This document shows, piece after piece, positions 18,116-29,027 of a stretch of 64,000 bases of DNA. The notes beneath the pieces were generated by a model. That model ran no database searches and was not told the DNA's origin. It saw nothing but the letters and a program-made list of their open reading frames with translations. This DNA is from Luteimonas sp. MC1572 (lineage in GTDB: Bacteria; Pseudomonadota; Gammaproteobacteria; Xanthomonadales; Xanthomonadaceae): positions 2,604,001-2,668,000 of the forward strand of contig NZ_CP067112.1 of the NCBI RefSeq assembly GCF_016615815.1, written 5' to 3'. The translations under genes and the position numbers were made by a program. Each line of letters begins with the position of its first letter. Within the stretch, counting starts at the first letter, position 1.

Positions 18116-18862
18116 ATGGCCTTCGACGTCCGCGCCATCACTCTCGACCTCGACGACACGCTATGGCCGTTCGCCCCGATCGGCGTGCGCATCGAACACG
18201 CGCTCGACGACTGGATGCGCACGCATTGCCCCGCCACCGCTGAGATGTTCCCGGTCGCCGCCATGCGCACGCTGCGCGAGCAGATGTTCGCCCGCCACCC
18301 GCAGCTCGCGCATGACATGTCGGCGCTGCGCCGGCTGACCATCGAACACGCGCTGCGCGAGAGCGGCGCCGACCTGGCGCTCGCCGGACCAGCCTACGAG
18401 GTGTTCTTCGCCGCGCGCAACGAAGTCGAGTTCTATCCCGAGGCGCGCGACGCCCTGGCGCGCATCAGCGCGCGGGTGCCGGTGGTGGCGCTGAGCAACG
18501 GCAACGCCGACCTCGACCGCATCGGCATCCGCCACCACTTCGCCGCCAGCGTCAGCGCGCAGGAACACGGCGCGGCCAAACCCGACGCCAGCATCTTCCT
18601 CGCCGCCTGCGAGCGCGTGGGCCTCGCGCCCGCCGAAGTGCTGCACGTGGGCGACCATCCCGAGGCCGATGTCGCCGGCGCCGCGCGCGCCGGGCTGCGC
18701 AGCTGCTGGATCAACCGTCGCGGCGCGGACGGCCGCCGCCCGCCGTGGCGGCACCGCAGCGCCACGCCGGACCTCAATTTCGACACCCTGTCCGGACTGG
18801 CCGACTGGCTGGAGGCGGCGACCGCCGCGCCGGGCGACGACACACGGAGCACCCCCGCATGA
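18116..18862 (+). CDS. HAD family hydrolase (YigB-like phosphatase)
   Basis: A 248-residue cytosolic phosphatase of the haloacid dehalogenase superfamily. Motif I is DLDDTLW (nucleophile Asp11, acid Asp13), motif II LSNGNADL, motif III the KPD lysine, and motif IV HVGDHPEAD. The helical cap sits between motifs I and II. The closest named relative is E. coli YigB, which dephosphorylates FMN and small sugar phosphates; the substrate here is unproven. Its TGA overlaps the ATG of the aminopeptidase by 4 bp, so the two are translated together. Confidence 0.88.
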   Translation: MAFDVRAITLDLDDTLWPFAPIGVRIEHALDDWMRTHCPATAEMFPVAAMRTLREQMFARHPQLAHDMSALRRLTIEHALRESGADLALAGPAYEVFFAARNEVEFYPEARDALARISARVPVVALSNGNADLDRIGIRHHFAASVSAQEHGAAKPDASIFLAACERVGLAPAEVLHVGDHPEADVAGAARAGLRSCWINRRGADGRRPPWRHRSATPDLNFDTLSGLADWLEAATAAPGDDTRSTPA

Positions 18863-20235
18863 GTTCCACGCCCGTCACCGGCACAGCCGACGCCACTTCC
18901 GCACAGCCGCTGCACCTGGTCGACCGCGACGGCCTCGCCGCCTGGCGCGCCGCGCAACCAGAGGCCGTCGGTGCCTGGCTCGATGCCAACCGTTTCGACG
19001 CGGCACCGGGCAGCCACCTGCTGCTGCCCGCCGACGACGGCGGGCCGGCAAGCGCCGTGCTCGGCATCGGTGACCGCCTCGACCCCGCCAGCTACGCGCA
19101 CGCGCCGATGGCGCTGCCGGGCGGCGACTGGGCGCCGGCGGCAGCACTCGATGACGCCGCACGCCACGCCCTGCAGCTCGGCTGGGGCCTGGGCAGCTAC
19201 GGCTTCGACCGCTACAAGGCGCGCACGCGCCCCCCGGCGCGGCTCGTGCTGGCGCAGCCCGATGCCGAGGCCGCCGACATCCTCGCCGCCTGCGTGCGCG
19301 TGCGCGACCTGGTCAACACGCCGACGCAGGACATGGGGCCGGAACAGCTCGAAGACGTGGCGCGCGGCATGGCCGAGGCGCACGGCGCGGCGTTCGAGGC
19401 GATCACCGGCGACGCGTTGCTGGCGCAGAACTTCCCCGCCATCCACGCCGTCGGCCGCGCCTCGCACCGCGCGCCGCGCCTGCTGGCGCTGCGCTGGGGC
19501 GACGCCGCGCACCCGCATGTGGCGATCGTCGGCAAGGGCGTGTGCTTCGACACCGGCGGCCTGGACATCAAGCCGGCCGACGGCATGCGCAACATGAAGA
19601 AGGACATGGGCGGCGCGGCGCACGCGCTGGCGCTTGCCGAGCTGGTGATGGCACGCGGGCTGCCGCTGCGCATCACCCTGCTGGTGCCGGCAGTGGAGAA
19701 CGCCATCGGCCCGGACGCGTTCCGCCCCGGCGAGGTGATCGCCACGCGCACCGGCGTGAGCGTCGAGATCGACAACACCGACGCCGAGGGCCGGGTGATC
19801 CTCGGCGACGCGCTGGCCTATGCCGGCGAACAGGCGCCCGACCTGATCCTCGACTTCGCCACCCTCACCGGCGCCGCGCGCATCGCGCTCGGCCCCGACC
19901 TGCCTGCGCTCTTCAGCAACGACGACGCGCTGGCGCAAGCCTGGCTCGACGCCGGCGTGCAGGTGCGCGACCCGCTGTGGCGCATGCCACTGTGGAGGCC
20001 GTATCTGCGCTACCTGACCAGCAAGGTCGCCGACCTGGCCAACGCCGGCTCGAAGATGGCCGGCAGCGTGACCGCGGCGCTGTACCTGGAGCGCTTCGTG
20101 CCCAAGGACATGCCGTGGGCGCACCTCGACACCTACGCCTGGAATGACAGCGATCGCCCCGGCCGCCCCGCCGGGGGCGAGGCGCTGGGGCTGCGCGCGG
20201 CCTACGCGATGCTCAAGGCGCGCGCGGCCGGCTGA
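18859..20235 (+). CDS. M17 family leucyl aminopeptidase
   Basis: A 458-residue dizinc cytosolic aminopeptidase. The catalytic region reads VGKGVCFDTGGLDIKP with Lys226, Asp231 and Lys238, then Asp249, and NTDAEGR with Asp308 and Glu310 as metal ligands. The N-terminal domain is divergent from E. coli PepA and more like PepB-type or XF-type family members. It shares an ATGA overlap with the HAD gene upstream and is convergent with the response regulator. The peptidase assignment is secure; the exact PepA/PepB subtype is not. Confidence 0.9.
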   Translation: MSSTPVTGTADATSAQPLHLVDRDGLAAWRAAQPEAVGAWLDANRFDAAPGSHLLLPADDGGPASAVLGIGDRLDPASYAHAPMALPGGDWAPAAALDDAARHALQLGWGLGSYGFDRYKARTRPPARLVLAQPDAEAADILAACVRVRDLVNTPTQDMGPEQLEDVARGMAEAHGAAFEAITGDALLAQNFPAIHAVGRASHRAPRLLALRWGDAAHPHVAIVGKGVCFDTGGLDIKPADGMRNMKKDMGGAAHALALAELVMARGLPLRITLLVPAVENAIGPDAFRPGEVIATRTGVSVEIDNTDAEGRVILGDALAYAGEQAPDLILDFATLTGAARIALGPDLPALFSNDDALAQAWLDAGVQVRDPLWRMPLWRPYLRYLTSKVADLANAGSKMAGSVTAALYLERFVPKDMPWAHLDTYAWNDSDRPGRPAGGEALGLRAAYAMLKARAAG

Positions 20236-20241
20236 GTCCGG

Positions 20242-20844
20242 CTACAGCCAGCCCTTCTGCCGCGCGAGGCGATACGCCTCGATGCGGTTGCCGACGCCGA
20301 GCTTGCCGATCGCTTCCGACAGATAGTTGCGCACCGTGCCATGCGACAGGCCGAGCGCGGTGGCGATGTCGGCGGCCGCCTGGCCTTCGCCGGCCAGGCG
20401 CAGCACCTGGCGTTCGCGCTCGTTGAGCGGGTCGGCCTCCGACCACGCTTCGAGCGCGAGCTGCGGATCGATGGCGCGGCCACCGGCGTGCACCCGGCGC
20501 AGCGCCTCGGCCAGCCGTTCGATCGGCGCGTCCTTCAGCAGGTAGCCGTGCACGCCCGCATCCAGCGCGCGGCGCAGGTAGCCGGCGCGGGCAAAGGTGG
20601 TGACGATGACGACCTTGGTCGCCAGCCCGTGGCGCTGGATGCGCTGTGCGAGCTCCAGGCCGGTGAGGCCGGGCATTTCGATGTCGGTGACCAGCAGGTC
20701 GGGCGAGGTGCCCTGCAGGTCGCGCCAGGCGGCCTCGCCGTCCGCCGCCGCGGCCACCACCTCGATGTCGGCCTCCATCGCGAGCAGCGCGGCGAGCGCG
20801 CCGCGCAGCAGGGCTTGGTCCTCGGCGAGCACGATGCGGATCAT
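20242..20844 (-). CDS. NarL/LuxR-family response regulator (DesR-like)
   Basis: A 200-residue regulator with an N-terminal receiver domain (acidic Asp8/Asp9-type pair in LAEDQ, phosphorylated Asp54 in VTDIEMPG, Lys in YLLKDAP) and a C-terminal LuxR-type helix-turn-helix (LNERERQVLRLAGEGQAAADIATALGLS). It overlaps its histidine kinase gene by 4 bp. It is the last gene of a five-gene operon that begins with an ABC exporter, the layout of DesK/DesR and LnrJK systems in Bacillus, where the regulator activates the adjacent transporter. The palindrome at 25789-25804 is its likely target. Confidence 0.92.
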   Translation of the reverse strand: MIRIVLAEDQALLRGALAALLAMEADIEVVAAAADGEAAWRDLQGTSPDLLVTDIEMPGLTGLELAQRIQRHGLATKVVIVTTFARAGYLRRALDAGVHGYLLKDAPIERLAEALRRVHAGGRAIDPQLALEAWSEADPLNERERQVLRLAGEGQAAADIATALGLSHGTVRNYLSEAIGKLGVGNRIEAYRLARQKGWL

Positions 20845-22103
20845 GCGCCGCCATCCGTGGCGCGGCGCAGGCCAGCGTCGGCAGGGCCGTCAGGATTCTC
20901 GTGGTCGTGGTCGTGGTCGCCGGCAGCGTGCGCCGACAGCGGCAGCCAGGCCTCCACCACCGTGCCTCCGCCGGGCGCCGGGCCGATATCCATGCGCCCG
21001 CCAAGCGACTCGATGCGCTCGCGCATGCCGCCCACGCCGTTGCCCGGCACGATCGCGCCGCCACGGCCGTCGTCGCGGATGCGCAGCGTGATGCCCTCAC
21101 CCGCGGCACGCATGGTGATCTCCGCGCTTTGCGCGCGGGCGTGGCGCTGGATGTTGGTCACGGCTTCGCGCAGCACCAGCGCCAGCGTGGTCTCCACGCG
21201 TGCCGGCAGCGCGCCGCCGGCCAGGCCGCGCTCATCCCAGTCATGGCGCAGCCCCACGCCGTCGCATTCCAGCAGCAGCTTTGCCGATGCCAGCTCGGCG
21301 GCGATGCCCGCCGCGCGGATGCCGCTGACCGCCGAGCGCACCTGCGCCAGCGCATCGCGCGCGACACGGCTCACGGCATCGATCTCGGCGCGCGCCGCCG
21401 CCGGGTCGCGCTCCACCAGGCGCGCGGCCAGGTCCGACTTCAACGCGACCAGCGACAGCGTGTGCCCGAGCAGGTCGTGCAGGTCGCGGCCGATGCGCTC
21501 GCGCTCGGCGAGCGCGGCCAGCCGGCGCACTTCGTCGTGCGACAGCCTGAGCGCCGCGTCCGCGGCATGGCTGGCGTGTTCGACGTGGACGATGGTGCCG
21601 ACGATCAGGGCGACCAGCGGCAGCCACACCACCGCCTGCCACGGGTAGCCGAGCCAAAGCGCGAAGCCGACGAACGCGGCGTTGAGCACGGCCAGCAGCA
21701 ACACGTAGCGGACCAGCGAGCGCGCGCGCTGGCTGCGCAGCATCACGCAGCCGAACACGAAATAGCTCATGCCCGATGGATACCAGGGCAGGAGCAGCAT
21801 GCCGAGCGCGATCATCGCCAGGGCGTAGCGCCAGGCGTTCCGCTCGGGGCGCAGCAGCACGCAGGCGTACAGCAGCACGAACAGCGGATACGTCAGCAGC
21901 GTGAGCAGCGCCCAGCGCGTGCTGTAGCCGTCCGGCGTGAACAGCGGCGTGGTGAACACCCACGCCGACCACATCAAGTGCACCCATTCGGTCCACGCCG
22001 AGCGGCCCTGGCGCTGCACCGCGGCGAGCGCCGAATCGGGCGCCGGCTGCACCCACGCACGCCAGCCGGACAACTTCGCGCGGTGCGCGCCTGCATGTTC
22101 CAT
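20841..22103 (-). CDS. DesK-type membrane sensor histidine kinase
   Basis: A 420-residue kinase with four to six membrane helices in its first 175 residues, almost no extracytoplasmic domain, then a HisKA_3 dimerisation helix ERERIGRDLHDLLGH with phospho-His209, and an HATPase domain (REAVTNIQRHA, DDGRG, GNGVGGMRERI). Intramembrane-sensing kinases of this type read membrane state or lipophilic antibiotics. The C-terminal His/Asp-rich tail (HAAGDHDHDHENPDG) could bind metal. The start is uncertain: GTG at 22121 directly follows the upstream stop; ATG at 22103 is used here. Overlaps the regulator gene by 4 bp. Confidence 0.88.
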   Translation of the reverse strand: MEHAGAHRAKLSGWRAWVQPAPDSALAAVQRQGRSAWTEWVHLMWSAWVFTTPLFTPDGYSTRWALLTLLTYPLFVLLYACVLLRPERNAWRYALAMIALGMLLLPWYPSGMSYFVFGCVMLRSQRARSLVRYVLLLAVLNAAFVGFALWLGYPWQAVVWLPLVALIVGTIVHVEHASHAADAALRLSHDEVRRLAALAERERIGRDLHDLLGHTLSLVALKSDLAARLVERDPAAARAEIDAVSRVARDALAQVRSAVSGIRAAGIAAELASAKLLLECDGVGLRHDWDERGLAGGALPARVETTLALVLREAVTNIQRHARAQSAEITMRAAGEGITLRIRDDGRGGAIVPGNGVGGMRERIESLGGRMDIGPAPGGGTVVEAWLPLSAHAAGDHDHDHENPDGPADAGLRRATDGGA

Positions 22104-22121
22104 GGCGCGATGATGCGCCAC

Positions 22122-23972
22122 TCAGCGCAACTCGACCTGGTCGATGTACAGCTCGAACGCGCCCTGCGGCTGGCCGGCGGTGATCGCCACCGCGCGCAGC
22201 GTGGCCACGTCCGCGCCGGCAAAGGACGCCAGCGGGATCCGCACCTCGCGCCACTCCGGTCCGGCGGTGAATGCCTGCATGCTCGGCAGCGCCTGCATCG
22301 ACGGCCCCGAGAACAGCATCACCTGGTAGCCGCGGCCGTCGCCGCGCGCCTGGAACACCAGTTCGCTGCGCGCCGACGCGTCCACCGGCTGCATCGGCTG
22401 CGCGCCGGGATGGAACATGGTGCCGGCCCAGGGGAAGGCGAAGCCGGGGCGGATCTCGCCCGCCACGCGCAGCGCACCACGCGAGCCTGCGGCGCCGCCT
22501 GCGGCCCAGGCCTGGTCGGCGACCGATGTGCCGCCCGCCATGGCATCGGTGGTGAGCTGCCAGCCGTGGCCGAAGCGCACGCCGGTCGCGCCGTCCTCGA
22601 AGTCGGCGAGCAGCGCGCCTGCGGCGATCGCCGGCGCTGCAGCCGGCGCGTCCATGCGCGGGCGGACGACGGCGTGACCGTTTTTCCAGATGCCGGCGAT
22701 GGCGCGCGTGGCGGCGATGTCCGCGGTGGGGTCGCCATCGACCAGCAGCAGGTCGGCACGCAGCCCGGGCGCGATGCGGCCGCGGTCGTCGAGGCCGAAG
22801 CGACGCGCCGGCACCGAAGTGGCCGCGGCCAGCGCGGCGCGCGGCGACAGGCCGGCGCGGACCAGCAGTGCCAGTTCACCGTGCACGCTGGCGCCGTGGG
22901 TGGTGCCGGGATTGCCCGCGTCGGTGCCGGCAAGCACGTCCACGCCCGCCGCATGCAGCGCGGCGACGCTGCGCAGGGCGTTGTCGAATGCCGCCGGACG
23001 CGGCGCGCCGGGGAATGCGGCTTCGAGCGCACCGCGCTGTTCCGCGGCCAGCCAGGGCGCCAGCCGCGCGTCCGCCGCAAGCGCGCTGCCGCTGCCGTCC
23101 TGCGCGAAGCTTGCGACCACCGACAGCGTCGGCACCACGAAGGCGCCGCTGCTGCGGGCAGCGGCGACGAACTCCGGCGATGCGGCGGCGTCATGGAACA
23201 CGTGCACCAGGCCGTCCGCGCCGGATTCAACCGCATGCAGCGCATCCGCCTGCGACGACGCGTGGACCACCGCGCGGCGCTCGTGCGCATGCGCCGCGGT
23301 GATCGCGGCGGCGACCTGCGCCGGCGTGATCGTCGGCAGGCGGCGCTCGTCGGAGTGGGTGCTGAAATCCTCGACGATCAGCTTGATGTAGTCGGAGCCC
23401 TCGGCCACGCGCGCGGCGACGAACGCCGCGGCATCGCCGTCGGCGGCGAGCGTCGGCACCGGGAAGCCGTATTGCGTGCCGTGGCCGCCGGCGGTGGTGA
23501 CGGTGGCGCCGGCGGTCCACAGGTCGGCCTGCCCGGTGGCACCGAGCGATTCGCGCTGCGCGCGCAGCGCCGGGATGCGGTTCCAGTCGCCGAACATGTC
23601 GAGCTCGGCGGTGACGCCGAAGCGCAGGGCGTCGCGCTGCGCCTCGCCCCAGCTGTGCGTATGCGCGTCGATGAAGCCGGGCAGCAGCGTCCGGCCCGCG
23701 CCGTCCACGACCTCGATGCCGGCCGGGATGGCGACATCGGCACCGACCGCCGCGATGCGGCCATCGCGGATGACGACATTGGCGGCGGGCAACACCCGTT
23801 CGCCGTCGAACACGCGCACGCCGGTGATCGCGAAGGCGGCGCCTTCGCCTCCGGACGGCAGGACGACGTCGGCGGCGACCGCGGGCTCCGCGGACGCGCC
23901 CTGGGCCAGCACGGCGCCGGCAATGGCGGCGGCGATGGCGCCCGCGGCGAGGATTTCAGGCCAGCGATTCAT
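22122..23972 (-). CDS. Exported amidohydrolase with C-terminal CIA30/CBM-like domain
   Basis: A 616-residue protein with a signal peptide (cleavage after ASA, about residue 28). Residues 45-440 form an amidohydrolase TIM barrel with metal-binding DAHTHSW (His104, His106), a YIKLIVED strand where the bridging lysine lies, histidines in VVHASS and HVFHD, and catalytic Asp in LAGTDAG. Residues about 455-616 form a jelly-roll domain like CIA30 (LLADFEDG ... FELYIDQVEL). It is imidazolonepropionase-like by family; the substrate is unknown. Its place between an exporter and a sensor suggests it acts on the compound being sensed. Confidence 0.85.
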   Translation of the reverse strand: MNRWPEILAAGAIAAAIAGAVLAQGASAEPAVAADVVLPSGGEGAAFAITGVRVFDGERVLPAANVVIRDGRIAAVGADVAIPAGIEVVDGAGRTLLPGFIDAHTHSWGEAQRDALRFGVTAELDMFGDWNRIPALRAQRESLGATGQADLWTAGATVTTAGGHGTQYGFPVPTLAADGDAAAFVAARVAEGSDYIKLIVEDFSTHSDERRLPTITPAQVAAAITAAHAHERRAVVHASSQADALHAVESGADGLVHVFHDAAASPEFVAAARSSGAFVVPTLSVVASFAQDGSGSALAADARLAPWLAAEQRGALEAAFPGAPRPAAFDNALRSVAALHAAGVDVLAGTDAGNPGTTHGASVHGELALLVRAGLSPRAALAAATSVPARRFGLDDRGRIAPGLRADLLLVDGDPTADIAATRAIAGIWKNGHAVVRPRMDAPAAAPAIAAGALLADFEDGATGVRFGHGWQLTTDAMAGGTSVADQAWAAGGAAGSRGALRVAGEIRPGFAFPWAGTMFHPGAQPMQPVDASARSELVFQARGDGRGYQVMLFSGPSMQALPSMQAFTAGPEWREVRIPLASFAGADVATLRAVAITAGQPQGAFELYIDQVELR

Positions 23973-24017
23973 GGCAACACTCCTTGGAGATCAGCAGCGG
24001 TGGCGAACGGTGAAGCA

Positions 24018-24797
24018 TCAGCCGCAGCGCGCGAGGCGCGCACGGGCAAGGACGAAAAATCCGATCGCGACCACCGCCAGCACGCCGAGGTGCAGCGCCA
24101 CCGGCTGGCCCGCATCCATGCCCACCACCTTCAGCGCAAGCTGGCCATGATGGTAGGAAGGCCACACCGGCGCCAGCCGGGCCAGCGCGTCCGGCAGCAT
24201 CGCCAGCGGCAGCCACAGTCCGGACAGGAACGACATCGGCAGGTACAGCAGGTTGACCACCACCGGCGCGGCGGAACCGCCGGCCACGGTGCCGATGTAC
24301 AGCCCGATGGCGCAGAACGGCAGCGCGCCGGCCACGTGCACCAGCCACAGCAGTGCCCACTGCCCGGGTGCAAGCGAGACCCCGGCCAGGGTGGCTGCGA
24401 TCACGGCCAGCAGCAGTGCGACGATCGCCGAGAACAGCAGCGCCATCGCCATCTTCGCCAGCAGCCACGCGCCGGGCGGCATGGGCAGCGCGCGCTTGAG
24501 CGCCAGCAGCCCCTGCGCGCGATCCATCGCCACGGTCACGCCGAAGCCGAACAGCGCGGCGCCCATCACGCCGAACACGCCATAGGTGGCCAGCATGTGC
24601 TGCGCGGCACTGCCGTCGCCGCGGTTCATCGCTACCCCGAACAGCAGGTAGAACATCACCGGGAACAGCAGCGTGGGCAGCGCGAACATCGGCGTGCGCA
24701 GCATGCGCAGGAACTCGTACTTCGCTTCCAGCACGTGGCTCTTCAGCAGCGGGTGGCGGCGGGCGGCCGCTGGAACCTCGACCATGGCATGCATCAC
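24018..24797 (-). CDS. ABC-2 type transporter permease
   Basis: A 259-residue inner-membrane permease with six hydrophobic helices (TLLFPVMFYLLFGVAM; GVFGVMGAALFGFGV; MALLFSAIVALLLAVIAAT; LLWLVHVAGALPFCAIGLYIG; PVVVNLLYLPMSFLSGLWLPL; and the C-terminal helix). It pairs with the ATPase at 24794-25708, whose stop overlaps its start by 4 bp. ABC-2 permeases of this size export drugs or lipids, as in the linearmycin and bacitracin-type exporters with DesKR-like sensors. Substrate unknown. Confidence 0.88.
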   Translation of the reverse strand: MMHAMVEVPAAARRHPLLKSHVLEAKYEFLRMLRTPMFALPTLLFPVMFYLLFGVAMNRGDGSAAQHMLATYGVFGVMGAALFGFGVTVAMDRAQGLLALKRALPMPPGAWLLAKMAMALLFSAIVALLLAVIAATLAGVSLAPGQWALLWLVHVAGALPFCAIGLYIGTVAGGSAAPVVVNLLYLPMSFLSGLWLPLAMLPDALARLAPVWPSYHHGQLALKVVGMDAGQPVALHLGVLAVVAIGFFVLARARLARCG

Positions 24798-25708
24798 GCG
24801 GCGTCCTTGAGCGACGTGTCGCGGGTGATTTCCAGGAAGGCCTCGGCGAGGCCGGCGCGGCTGACGTCGAGCCCGGACAGCGCCGGATCGGCGGCGAGCA
24901 GGCCACGCACCACGTCCTCGGCCACGTCGGCCACCACCTCCAGGCGTCCGCCATCGCGATGCACGGCACGAACCCGCGGCCAGCGCGCCACCTCCTCGGC
25001 ATCGACCGTGGTGGTGCAGCGGATGCGGCGCTGGTCGACGCGTGCGCGCACTTCATCAAGACTGCCGCTGGCCACCACGCGGCCATCGGCCAGCACCACC
25101 ACGCGATCGGCCAGCGCCTCGGCCTCTTCCAGGTAATGCGTGGTCAGCAGCACCGAGGTGCCCCCGGCGACGAGATCGCGCAGGCCGCGCCAGAGGCCCT
25201 GGCGTGCTTCGATGTCGAGGCCGGTGGTGGGCTCGTCGAGGAACAGCACGCGCGGCGCGCCGCAGATGGCGAGTGCGAACTGCACGCGACGCTGCTGGCC
25301 GCCGGAGAGCTTGCCGTAGCGGCGCTTGAGCAGGCCGTCGAGCCCGGCGATGGCGACGCAGTCGGCCACGCTGCGCGGCGCGGGGTAATAGCTGCGCGTC
25401 AGGTCGAGCAGTTCGCCGACGGCGAGCGTGTCGGCGATCGCGCCGGCCTGCAGCATCACGCCGATGCCCTGGCGCGCCGCGAGGTCCTGCGGCGAGCGCC
25501 CGAACAGCCGCGCCTGGCCTGCATCCGGCTGCAGCAGGCCGAGCAGCAGCGAGATCGCCGTGGTCTTGCCGGCGCCGTTGGCGCCGAGCAGGGCGAGCAC
25601 CTGGCCGCGATGCAGGTCGAGATCGACGCCGTCGAGCGCGACGACCGTGCCATAGCGCTTGCCCGCGCCCTGCAGTTGGGCGAGTGGCGCGTGATCGGAC
25701 TGGTGCAT
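24794..25708 (-). CDS. ABC transporter ATP-binding protein (drug-export type)
   Basis: A 304-residue ATPase: Walker A LGANGAGKTT (from residue 41), signature LSGGQQRR, Walker B VLFLDEP, and H-loop LTTHYLEE, then a C-terminal accessory domain of about 80 residues, as in CcmA/DrrA-type exporters. The start at 25708 (MHQSDHAP) begins about 10 residues before the conserved core; the longer frame to 26077 crosses the divergent promoter. First gene of the minus-strand operon ATPase-permease-amidohydrolase-kinase-regulator. Confidence 0.92.
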   Translation of the reverse strand: MHQSDHAPLAQLQGAGKRYGTVVALDGVDLDLHRGQVLALLGANGAGKTTAISLLLGLLQPDAGQARLFGRSPQDLAARQGIGVMLQAGAIADTLAVGELLDLTRSYYPAPRSVADCVAIAGLDGLLKRRYGKLSGGQQRRVQFALAICGAPRVLFLDEPTTGLDIEARQGLWRGLRDLVAGGTSVLLTTHYLEEAEALADRVVVLADGRVVASGSLDEVRARVDQRRIRCTTTVDAEEVARWPRVRAVHRDGGRLEVVADVAEDVVRGLLAADPALSGLDVSRAGLAEAFLEITRDTSLKDAA

Positions 25709-25788
25709 GCGGTGAACCCCGGCGATTGGACGGCGCCATGTTCGTCGCCATGCGCGCTGGCCGGCAGTCGCGCCGGTCAGGGATCGCG

Positions 25789-25804
25789 GGTGACAGACGT
25801 CACC
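25789..25804. promoter_or_regulatory. Palindromic operator between divergent exporter operons
   Basis: GGTGAC-AGAC-GTCACC, a perfect 6+6 inverted repeat with a 4-bp spacer, in the 163-bp gap between the two operons. It touches the -35 of the plus-strand promoter, the usual place for a NarL-family activator. The response regulator at 20242-20844 is the obvious candidate. Confidence 0.5.
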
Positions 25805-25832
25805 TGACATCGCATCCTGCGGCGGACACACT
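25804..25832 (+). promoter_or_regulatory. Promoter of the MacA-like operon
   Basis: CTGACA (25804-25809, five of six matches), 17-bp spacer, CACACT (25827-25832, three of six). The weak -10 fits an activated promoter. Predicted start near 25839. Confidence 0.4.
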
Positions 25833-25871: not shown

Positions 25872-27110
25872 ATGAACACCAACGCCGACCTGCTCAGGGA
25901 ATTGAGGATCGACCGCAACGCGCCACCGCCGCCATCGCGGCGCGGGCTGTGGATCGCCGTGGCCGTCGCCGCAGCGGTGCTGCTGGTGGCCGGCGCGGCG
26001 TGGGCGTTCCTCGCGCGCGACCGCGGCATCGAAGTGCAGACCGCGCCGGTGGTCGCCGCCGCGGGCGGCGGCAGCACCGCGGCTTCGGTGCTCGATGCCA
26101 GCGGCTACGTGGTGGCGCGGCGCATGGCGACCGTGTCATCGAAGATCACCGGCCGCGTGCGCGAGGTGCTGATCGAGGAAGGCCAGCGCGTGGCCGAAGG
26201 CGAGGTCATGGCGACCCTCGACCCGATCGATGCAGACGCGCAGCGCGACCTGTCGCAGGCGCAGCTCGGTGCCGCGCGCAGCCAGGCCGGCGGCGTCCGC
26301 GCGCAGCTGGTCGAAGCCGAAGCGAATGCGCGGCGGCTGTCGTCGCTGGTGCAGCAGCAGCTGGTGTCGCGCGCGCAGTACGAACAGGCCATCGCACAGC
26401 GCGATTCGCTGCGCGCGCAGCTCGCCACCGCGCAGCGCAACGCGCAGGTCGCCGGCGAACAGCTGCGGATCAGCGGCATCGGCGTCGACAACACCATCGT
26501 GCGCGCGCCGTTCGCCGGCGTGGTGATCGCCAAGGCGGCGCAGCCTGGCGAGATCGTGTCGCCGCTGTCGGCCGGTGGCGGCTTCACCCGCACCGGCATC
26601 GGCACCATCGTCGACATGGACTCGCTGGAAGTCGAAGTCGACGTCGGCGAGGCCTACATCGGTCGCGTGCAGCCGGCCATGCCGGTCGAAGCCACGCTCA
26701 ATGCCTATCCGGACTGGAAGATCCCGGCGGAAGTAATCGCCATCATCCCCACCGCCGACCGCGGCAAGGCCACGGTCAAGGTGCGCGTGGCGCTGAAGGA
26801 GAAGGACCCGCGGATCGTGCCGGACATGGGCGTGACCGTGAGCTTCCTGGAACGCGCACCCGATGCGGCAGCGGATCAGCCGCGCGGCGTGCGCGTACCG
26901 GCCGCGGCGATCGCTGCGCGCGACGGCGGCGACGTCGCCTTCGTGGTCGCCGCCGAGGACCGCGCCGAACTGCGCACGATCCGCACCGTCGCGGGGCGCA
27001 GCGGCGGCGACCGCCAGGTGCTGTCCGGGCTCGCACCCGGCGAAACCGTCGTGCTCGACCCGCCGGCCGACCTGCGCGACGGCGACCGGCTGCGCATCGC
27101 CAACGACTGA
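25872..27110 (+). CDS. Efflux periplasmic adaptor (MacA/HlyD family)
   Basis: A 412-residue membrane fusion protein. One N-terminal membrane helix (residues about 21-45, GLWIAVAVAAAVLLVAGAAW) is followed by a split lipoyl domain (VSSKITGRVREVLIEEGQRV and IVRAPFAGVVIAKAAQPGE), a coiled-coil hairpin (about 120-200) and beta-barrel domains. It bridges an inner-membrane ABC exporter and an outer-membrane channel. The gene leads an operon with an ATPase and two FtsX-like permeases. No TolC-like gene is present, so a channel encoded elsewhere is expected. Confidence 0.9.
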   Translation: MNTNADLLRELRIDRNAPPPPSRRGLWIAVAVAAAVLLVAGAAWAFLARDRGIEVQTAPVVAAAGGGSTAASVLDASGYVVARRMATVSSKITGRVREVLIEEGQRVAEGEVMATLDPIDADAQRDLSQAQLGAARSQAGGVRAQLVEAEANARRLSSLVQQQLVSRAQYEQAIAQRDSLRAQLATAQRNAQVAGEQLRISGIGVDNTIVRAPFAGVVIAKAAQPGEIVSPLSAGGGFTRTGIGTIVDMDSLEVEVDVGEAYIGRVQPAMPVEATLNAYPDWKIPAEVIAIIPTADRGKATVKVRVALKEKDPRIVPDMGVTVSFLERAPDAAADQPRGVRVPAAAIAARDGGDVAFVVAAEDRAELRTIRTVAGRSGGDRQVLSGLAPGETVVLDPPADLRDGDRLRIAND

Positions 27111-27145
27111 CCACGACACCCTTGCAACCACCACGAGGCATGGCC

Positions 27146-27838
27146 ATGACCACCCTGGTATCGATCCGCAACCTCACCAAGTCCTACCAGCGCGGCCCGG
27201 AAAAGGTCGAGGTGCTGCACGGCCTGGACCTGGACATCGCCTCGGGCGATTTCGTCGCCCTGATGGGGCCGTCGGGCTCGGGCAAGACCACGCTGCTCAA
27301 CCTCATCGGCGGGCTCGATGCGCCCAGCGGCGGCGAGATCGAGATCGACGGCCAGCGGATCGATAGCATGGGCGCGGGCCAGCTGGCGACCTGGCGCAGC
27401 CGCAACGTCGGCTACGTGTTCCAGTTCTACAACCTGATGCCTGCGCTGACCGCGCAGAAGAACGTCGAGCTGCCGCTGCTGCTGACCAGGCTCGGCGCAG
27501 CGCAGCGCAAGCGCAACGCGCAGATCGCGCTCGAGCTTGTCGGCCTGTCCGACCGCACCTCGCACAAGCCGGCCGAGCTCTCCGGCGGCCAGCAGCAGCG
27601 CGTGGCGATCGCGCGCGCGATCGTCTCCGACCCGACGATCCTGATCTGCGACGAGCCGACCGGCGACCTCGACCGCCAGTCGGCCGAAGACATCCTCGGC
27701 CTGCTGCAGGAGCTCAACCGCACGCACGGCAAGACCATCGTCATGGTCACCCACGACCCGAAGGCGGCCGAATACGCCAGCCACACCCTGCACCTCGACA
27801 AGGGCACCCTTGTCGAACAGCAGTCGCACGCGGCCTGA
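27146..27838 (+). CDS. ABC transporter ATP-binding protein (MacB/LolD type)
   Basis: A 230-residue ATPase: Walker [10 protein letters not shown] (from residue 41), Q-loop [10 protein letters not shown], signature LSGGQQQR, Walker [13 protein letters not shown], and H-loop VTHD. It is the type that works with FtsX-fold mechanotransmission permeases. ATG 27146 is chosen over 27140 because GAGG lies 7 nt upstream. It is 35 nt after the adaptor gene and 22 nt before the first permease. Confidence 0.92.
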
Positions 27839-27860
27839 AGCACGACCGGAGGAGGCCGAC

Positions 27861-29027
27861 ATGAAGTACTTCCACCTGGTCTGGGCCGCGCTGTTCCGGC
27901 GCAAGACCCGTACCTTCCTGACGCTCGCCTCGATCGTGGCCGCGTTCCTGCTGTTCGGCCTGCTCGACGGCATCCGCTCGAGCTTCGCCCAGCTCGGCCA
28001 GAACGCCGACGGCGCGCAGCGCCTGCAGACGGCGTCGAAGCTGTCCTTCATCGAGACCCTGCCGATCTCGCTGCAGGGGCGCATCGCCAACATCGACAAC
28101 ATCGAAGCAGTGACCTACGCCAACTGGTTCGGCGGCACCTACCAGGGACCGAAGAACCAGCTGTTCACGTTCGCGGTGGCGCCGAACTACCTGGACCTTT
28201 ATCCCGAGATCCTGGTGGATCCGGCCGAGGTCGAGGCCTGGAAGCGCAACCGCACCGGCATGCTGGTCGGCGAGACCATGATGAAGCGCTTCGACTGGAA
28301 GGTCGGGCAGCGCGTGCCGCTGCAGTCGAGCATCTTCCCCAACAGCGACGGCAGCCTGGACTGGGCGTTCGACATCGTCGGCGTGCTGCGTGCCAAGGAC
28401 AAGAAGAGCGCCGGCTTCACCGAATCGCTGATCCTGATGCACTACGACTACTTCGAGGAATCAACGCCGTATGTCGACGGCGACGTCGGCTGGTACATCA
28501 GCCGCGTCTCCGACGTGCGCCGCAGCGACGCGGCGGCCAGGGCGATCGACGCGCTGTCCGCCAACTCGCCGCACGAGACCAAGTCGATGAGCGAACAGGC
28601 GGCGATGGCCTCGCAGCTCAAGCAGATGGCCGACATCGGCCTGATCGTGGGCTCGATCATGGGCGCGGTGTTCTTCACCCTGCTGTTGCTCACCGGCAAC
28701 ACCATGGCGCAGGCGGTGCGCGAGCGCACCTCGGAACTCGCGGTGCTGAAGACGATCGGCTTCTCCAGCAGCAGCGTGCTGTGCATGGTGCTGGCGGAAT
28801 CGATGCTGATCGTGGTCATCGGCGGGGTGCTGGGCCTCGCCCTTGCGGCGGTGATCGGGCCCGCGGCCTCGGCCGGCAGCGGCGGCATGATCAGCCTGCC
28901 ACCGGTGGGCCTGCAGAGCTGGATGCTGGGCCTGGCGCTGATGCTGGCGATCGGCCTGCTGGTGGGCGCGCTGCCGGCGATCCGCGCCATGCGCCTGAAC
29001 ATCGTCGACGCCCTCGCGGGCCGTTGA
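27861..29027 (+). CDS. FtsX-like ABC permease (first of pair)
   Basis: A 388-residue permease with MacB-like topology: an N-terminal membrane helix ([20 protein letters not shown]), a periplasmic domain of about 230 residues, and three C-terminal helices ([61 protein letters not shown]). GGAGGAGG gives a strong ribosome binding site. Two non-identical permeases in one operon suggest a heterodimeric exporter, unlike homodimeric MacB. Confidence 0.9.

Follow-up and report, generated by a model that had tools for sequence, protein, structure and literature searches.

An ABC exporter, amidohydrolase, and DesK/DesR-type gene unit behind a conserved palindromic promoter site in Luteimonas and its relatives

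We studied a five-gene, operon-like unit of Luteimonas sp. MC1572 located in a 64,000-nucleotide stretch of contig NZ_CP067112.1 (positions 2,604,001 to 2,668,000), hereafter called the window. The unit encodes, in this order, the ATPase and the permease of an ATP-binding cassette (ABC) exporter, an amidohydrolase (AH), a DesK-type sensor kinase, and a DesR/NarL-type response regulator, and it is preceded by a palindromic operator (Table 1). What can be read directly from this unit and its relatives is the gene order, a fixed promoter layout, the presence of this layout before dispersed parts of the unit, and a set of conserved residues. In agreement with a preliminary description of this DNA, all five genes (20242 to 25708) lie on one strand (here, minus) with the domains named there (Pfam), and three of their junctions overlap or abut. 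The ATPase and permease genes share a single base (TGATG), and the kinase and regulator genes overlap by 4 bp. With the GTG at 22121 as the kinase start, the AH and kinase genes abut; with the ATG at 22103, 18 bp lie between them. The permease and AH genes are separated by 45 bp. Neither a sigma-70 consensus promoter nor a terminator was found in the module.

Table 1. Features of the locus, with positions in the window
Feature	Position	Strand	Basis
ABC transporter ATPase, 304 residues	24794..25708	-	PF00005 ABC_tran; best match is the DrrA family, under the DrrA cut-off
ABC-2 permease, 258 residues	24018..24794	-	PF01061 ABC2_membrane, PF12698
Amidohydrolase (AH), 616 residues, likely exported	22122..23972	-	Amidohydro_1 95-433 and CIA30 470-585
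DesK-type sensor kinase, likely intramembrane, 420 residues from ATG 22103	20841..22103	-	HisKA_3 and HATPase_c; hydropathy
DesR/NarL-type response regulator, 200 residues	20242..20844	-	Response_reg and GerE; DesR (4ldz) nearest solved structure
Palindromic operator GGTGACGTCTGTCACC	25789..25804	-	Core TGACGTCTGTCA at 25791-25802
Second half-box	25765..25779	-	TGAC 25776-25779, ACTG 25765-25768; fixed spacing from the palindrome
Predicted -10 element GAACAT	25738..25743	-	A60 and T64 each in 93% of 85 aligned sites
Divergent periplasmic adaptor, HlyD/MacA type, of a MacAB-like exporter	25872..27110	+	Domain and family matches

The conservation of the AH with its neighbors was analyzed in a set of 61 genomes, comprising the own genome and 60 relatives, 37 of the 61 belonging to the genus (genomes and loci are designated below by G and L numbers). 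An AH orthologue with at least 56% identity over nearly the full length was present in 20 of the 37 genus genomes, and a relative with 45 to 52% identity in 4 of the 24 others, where the match in G055 and G044 covered the catalytic part only. The ATPase and permease genes adjoined the AH gene at all 24 loci, window included, and the kinase and regulator genes did so at 22 (exceptions, G039 and G055). None of the distant AH-like paralogues at L060 to L062 had such a permease, kinase, or regulator nearby, or an operator. We then looked beyond this set, scoring, for the AH, only the best three to four candidates per genome. Order-wide, the AH was found in 39/299 genomes (E value of 1e-80) and the permease in 171/299 (1e-35). 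At 31 AH loci from the order, three of which repeat the earlier set, the kinase gene adjoined in 29, the ATPase gene in 29, and the permease gene in 28. Class-wide, the AH was present in 3/369 genomes at 1e-70, namely, the own genome and G203 and G316, which belong to another order and both keep the full five-gene order; phylum-wide, it was present in 5/398 genomes at 1e-60, own genome included. The association of the AH with kinase and regulator is thus kept across families of the order, and in another class (G977) the AH is detached under the same box. The preliminary description had named conserved co-occurrence of the AH with this kinase and regulator as a check, and the genes are indeed conserved together. 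Its alternative, a chance insertion, was tied to an AH confined to this genome or transcribed separately; the AH is found in other genomes too and, by position, beside the module genes, and we rejected chance insertion in view of this conserved context and of the box standing before detached copies.

The palindrome noted in that description recurs with a fixed layout: TGACRNNTGTCA lies upstream of 57 of the 62 AH units whose upstream DNA could be read (65 loci were examined, 3 of which had too little of it). The sequence was exact, on either strand, in 56 units and carried one mismatch in the 57th (L044). Similarly, 47 of 48 ATPase upstream regions contained an operator site scoring above the 99th percentile of shuffled DNA with a matrix derived from those same 48 regions, the sole exception being the paralogous ABC pair at L086. 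The operator precedes the ATPase gene in AH-bearing and AH-free modules alike, which led us to reject the idea that it is a property of the AH, and it is also found before kinase-regulator pairs distant from the exporter (L087, L088, and L089). In the own genome, a single contig of 3.02 Mb, the 12-base TGACRNNTGTCA occurs at three places, and only the window copy shows the remaining layout (8/8 positions). The two other copies, one at the end of a pilS-like kinase gene (named by eye from the sequence) and one in L097, reach at most 4 and 2. A wide regulon in this genome was rejected on these grounds. Taken together, the gene order and operator surveys support a single exporter-AH-DesKR unit behind a conserved palindrome.

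We aligned 85 sites, counting the first T of the palindrome as position 0. Conserved positions were 23 to 26 (TGAC), 34 to 37 (ACTG), A60, and T64, with T23 and T36 invariant in all 85. The layout consists of TGACRNNTGTCA, 11 bp, TGAC, 7 bp, ACTG, 21 bp, and the -10 hexamer. The second half-box is probably the promoter-proximal site of the regulator, and the whole would represent two regulator sites, one strong and one weaker, centered at about -65 and -41 and followed by the -10 element. Such predicted centers would suit an activator. On this reading, the layout would resemble two-site binding by DesR. Agreement with the layout was scored at eight positions, the direction of reading being set by the gene. 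Ninety-two loci were taken, six of which had no site, and the 86 remaining sites scored 8 (47 sites), 7 (32 sites), 6 (6 sites), or 5 (1 site). With the direction reversed, 84 of the 86 scored 5 or less; one of the two others (L127) scored 7, and one lay at a locus edge. Among 39 other sites, 30 scored 5 or less and nine scored 6 to 8. These nine include two ATPase promoters from AH-free genomes (L186 and L189) and L237, an exporter locus of G669. Five face a MacA-like adaptor gene or the small periplasmic gene preceding it (G521, G047, G056, G613, and G039), and the ninth, in G806, precedes genes for an additional kinase and an additional regulator, along with one for a small periplasmic protein.

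The same operator was found where the unit is broken up. G671 and G657 carry the operator followed by AH, kinase, and regulator genes, with no recognized exporter alongside. In G806, operator, exporter, and AH are at one place and operator, kinase, and regulator at another, while G977 and G1014 each harbor a lone AH gene with its operator and a separate operon composed of operator, ATPase, permease, kinase, and regulator. In G977, the AH gene and the regulator operon are 885 kb apart along the contig. That the operator stands before these separated parts makes the best case for a single regulon of AH, exporter, and regulator.

A further exporter adjoins the operator. An HlyD/MacA-like adaptor gene is divergent beside it in most genus loci, and in the window the divergent MacAB-like genes extend from 25872 to 29027 on the plus strand, the ATPase and FtsX-type permease genes after the adaptor being named by eye. 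The adaptor was found in 23/32 further genomes and was divergent from the ATPase gene in two; in the 21 others it is detached, and five of these have the same promoter box directed at the adaptor gene or at the gene preceding it. Read in the adaptor direction, the window site scores 1/8, and control of the adaptor by the operator in Luteimonas is therefore only a candidate.

We also noted other genes beside such sites. A putative alpha/beta hydrolase of G1014 (L169, 4238-5352) has a palindrome 74 bp upstream with a layout score of only 2/8, and we do not claim it as a member. A DUF7010 membrane protein of G806 (L172, 4808-5477) follows a palindromic site with a layout score of 0/8; by eye, its second box and -10 element appear shifted by one base. 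A small, probably periplasmic protein resembling tetratricopeptide repeat proteins adjoins a TGACRNNTGTCA site in G806, G039, and G046 (L171, 4026-4757; L175, 4591-5307; L182, 3338-3979). These proteins show 26 to 27% identity to the first one aligned and share a TPxxxGG motif, and two of the three sites show the complete layout. Beyond the regulator end of the module, the window contains a leucyl-aminopeptidase-like gene (18859-20235, plus strand; named by eye), a close relative of which is present at 23 of the 54 module loci compared.

We next considered how the AH is distributed over the modules. Within the genus, the kinase was found in 33/37 genomes and the permease in 32/37. No significant match to AH remnants was detected in 19 AH-free modules; this search covered 20 loci, one of which (L075) could not be measured for lack of a permease, and L082, L083, and L085 were excluded. 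A core tree was built by a quick method (LG+G4) from the four core proteins of 47 loci, 27 with AH; it omits L075, L082, L085, and L096, includes G039, G055, and G046 each assembled from two loci, and came with long-branch warnings. AH presence changes 11 times on this tree, at least 8 of the changes being forced by well-supported branches. The AH tree and the core tree have 17 of 24 splits in common (27 rows) and disagree in seven, and AH and core distances are correlated (r = 0.87, 22 Luteimonas rows), with none of 999 permutations as high. This history fits shared descent with repeated loss. Exporter and sensor form the core, and the hydrolase is an accessory kept or dropped by lineage. A general peptide scavenger captured by chance in the operon would be consistent with the frequent lack of the AH and with a fold family that includes dipeptidases. 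The agreement of the AH tree with the module tree argues against such a capture, as does the promoter box shared by detached AH genes, and we regard it as very improbable.

Some modules of the set have an unusual composition. In G007 (L075, 5080-6990), the operator directly precedes the kinase and regulator genes, and exporter and AH are absent there, as in a natural deletion. In G059 (L082, 3192-4955), operator, ATPase, and permease lie at a contig end of a fragmented assembly. The G056 module (L080, 4906-7202) contains two tandem kinase genes, whose products are 51% and 43% identical to the window kinase.

The nearest solved relatives of the kinase are structures of DesK (3gig and 7ssj; E value of 2e-29), and that of the regulator is DesR (4ldz; 4.8e-53), the partners of the B. 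subtilis thermosensor. The kinase combines HisKA_3 and HATPase_c domains and the regulator is of the NarL/GerE type, as in DesK/DesR pairs. Hydropathy analysis gave four segments in the kinase between residues 66 and 174, with the DesK-like part starting at about residue 184, in keeping with a DesK-type sensor that has several transmembrane helices and no sizeable sensor domain outside the cytoplasm. By eye, another hydrophobic-looking stretch lies ahead of residue 66, and the helix count is therefore approximate. The permease consists of an ABC2_membrane domain in 258 residues with 6 to 7 hydrophobic segments. BceB permeases are large, with about 10 helices and an extracellular domain; on the size and segments of the permease, a Bce-type peptide-antibiotic module was rejected. 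An anti-phage function was rejected as well: in PADLOC (E value of 1e-3), there was no match for permease, AH, or kinase, and ATPase and regulator matched only the ATPase and helix-turn-helix parts of larger models.

The likeness to DesK and DesR raises the possibility of a membrane-homeostasis regulon, in which the sensor would follow fluidity or thickness, the exporter would move lipids, and the AH would recycle the cell's own N-acyl amino acid lipids or peptides of the envelope. DesK reads the membrane state and EdsRS (see below) works via cardiolipin synthesis (PMC7157781), and the sequence implies no external compound. However, the five-gene module contains no desaturase or lipid-synthesis gene, and none was recognized either, naming genes by eye, at 19 further regions from eight genomes. 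We consider this explanation unlikely.

In the AH, residues H104, H106, K197, H237, H257, and D351 were invariant in 50/50 aligned sequences, and most of the invariant residues align with the corresponding residues of LlADH. We take them to be metal ligands (HxH, Lys, His, His, and Asp). The structural model (mean pLDDT of 92.2) shows an N-terminal hydrophobic helix (residues 4 to 24), a low-confidence linker, and a metal-dependent catalytic domain at about residues 44 to 437; the protein is likely exported. The CIA30 domain, placed in the middle of the protein by the preliminary description, is in fact C-terminal and follows the catalytic domain; its best sequence match among solved structures had an E value of 0.2, which is not meaningful. 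The best structural matches of the AH were prolidases, arginine and lysine carboxypeptidases, an Xaa-Pro dipeptidase, and ochratoxin amidohydrolases, all spanning only the catalytic domain (about residues 42 to 443 of 616) at roughly 19 to 28% identity. Prolidases, carboxypeptidases, and ochratoxin amidohydrolases liberate an amino acid by cutting an amide bond. TIM barrel and ligand residues place the AH in the prolidase/carboxypeptidase/ochratoxinase branch of the amidohydrolase superfamily. It shares the catalytic fold and matching ligand residues with LlADH, ADH3, Aspergillus niger ochratoxinase, Cc2672, and related arginine/lysine carboxypeptidases and prolidases, but, unlike them, has an extra C-terminal CIA30 domain and an N-terminal helix. 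Its best NCBIfam match, Xaa-Pro dipeptidase NF051886, reached 83.5 bits versus a cut-off of 500, so that it is not assigned to this family.

One structural relative of the AH is named bottromycin amidohydrolase (6i5s). Bottromycin amidohydrolase is an enzyme of natural-product maturation, and endogenous lipids, glycans, and peptides are among the cargoes of ABC-2 exporters. The exporter could accordingly secrete a lipid or peptide of the cell itself, which the AH would trim or mature in the periplasm while the kinase tunes output to the membrane state; the AH does mostly coexist with the exporter. Yet Pfam revealed no precursor or biosynthetic gene among the five, and both the patchy retention of the AH (11 changes, 8 of them forced) and its occurrence without exporter under the same box fit an accessory defense better. 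Export of an own product therefore seems improbable to us.

We favor instead, at roughly even odds (a probability of about 0.5), a five-gene unit that is predicted to detect disturbance of the membrane and would likely respond by export and periplasmic hydrolysis of an amide-containing, membrane-active compound. The kinase would likely read the state of the inner membrane as DesK does, the trigger being a membrane-active compound or its effect. The phosphorylated regulator would bind as two dimers near -65 and -41 and activate the promoter, the exporter would pull the amphiphile out of the inner membrane, and the AH would cleave an amide bond at the periplasmic face, probably releasing a terminal amino acid if its prolidase, arginine carboxypeptidase, and ochratoxinase relatives are a guide. 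Exporter and hydrolase would then make a joint response to one envelope-active compound.

Several observations weigh against this reading. The module consisting of ATPase, permease, kinase, and regulator lacks the AH in 12 genus genomes (of 37, and of the 32 with the permease). The AH is thus often absent, in the genus as in most of the order, and is not required; the preliminary description had made it a step of the response, and as an obligatory step it does not stand. The likeness in fold leaves its substrate unfixed, and in the AH gene of G044 a stop interrupts the matched stretch. No regulator was found at an E value of 1e-40 in the fragmented assembly of G059. As for the operator, in three AH units (L211, L217, and L235) the only site at the expected place carries one mismatch, and L233 and L128 have no recognizable operator in the upstream regions examined. 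In eight other genomes, the bare 12-mer is about as frequent as a reversed control, so that the case depends on position and layout. The eight layout positions were chosen on the 85 sites that make up most of those scored, leaving only the nine further high scorers independent of the training set. Finally, the site at L127 scores 7 in both directions, and the detached kinase site of G039 reaches only 5/8.

The core of the module is known. Four genes co-located behind a common regulatory site make it, by position, an ABC exporter-DesKR module, and EdsRS-EdsAB, an envelope-damage module of Bacillus, has the same four-gene core of regulator, HisKA_3 kinase, ABC permease, and ABC ATPase; as far as the accessible part of PMC7157781 describes it, however, that operon has four genes without an amidohydrolase and acts via a cardiolipin synthase operon. 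LnrJK-LnrLMN (YfiJKLMN) of Bacillus subtilis likewise joins an intramembrane kinase and a helix-turn-helix regulator to an ABC transporter, lnrLMN being under LnrK and the system responding to linearmycin and amphotericin (PMC7472640 and PMC4672918, in part). It differs in having three ABC genes versus two, and no hydrolase is described for it in these portions; the main text of PMC4672918 nowhere uses the word "amidohydrolase". In contrast to DesK-DesR, our module is without a desaturase, and its linked genes encode an exporter and a hydrolase. An AH in an ABC-DesKR module is not described in the titles and abstract beginnings that searches of the open-licence literature listed, most subscription papers lying outside it, and a literature search for the site as TGACANNTGTCA gave a lone match, an animal study. 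Within this scope, the module represents a new form of a known kind: the ABC-DesKR core has the Eds architecture and is close to Lnr, and the AH tied to it is new.

More tentatively, and with less confidence than in the reading above, we propose that a DesK-type sensor in Pseudomonadota commands a modular envelope-defense regulon set by one promoter code. The periplasmic metallo-amidase would destroy a lipopeptide-like antibiotic of a competitor while the ABC-2 and MacAB-like exporters clear the membrane; the code, not the gene order, would unite the system, and the amidase would be retained or lost with changes in the enemy compound.

The strictness of the promoter layout allows further members to be proposed from sequence, and the AH would represent a new metallo-amidase branch adjoining the ochratoxin-degrading enzymes. 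Detached copies counted, the AH-linked system spans at least three orders and two classes. As far as the partly available sources go, published ABC-DesKR modules come from Bacillus and serve to sense and export; in the present case, in Gram-negative bacteria, a likely degrading enzyme joins the same kind of sensor.
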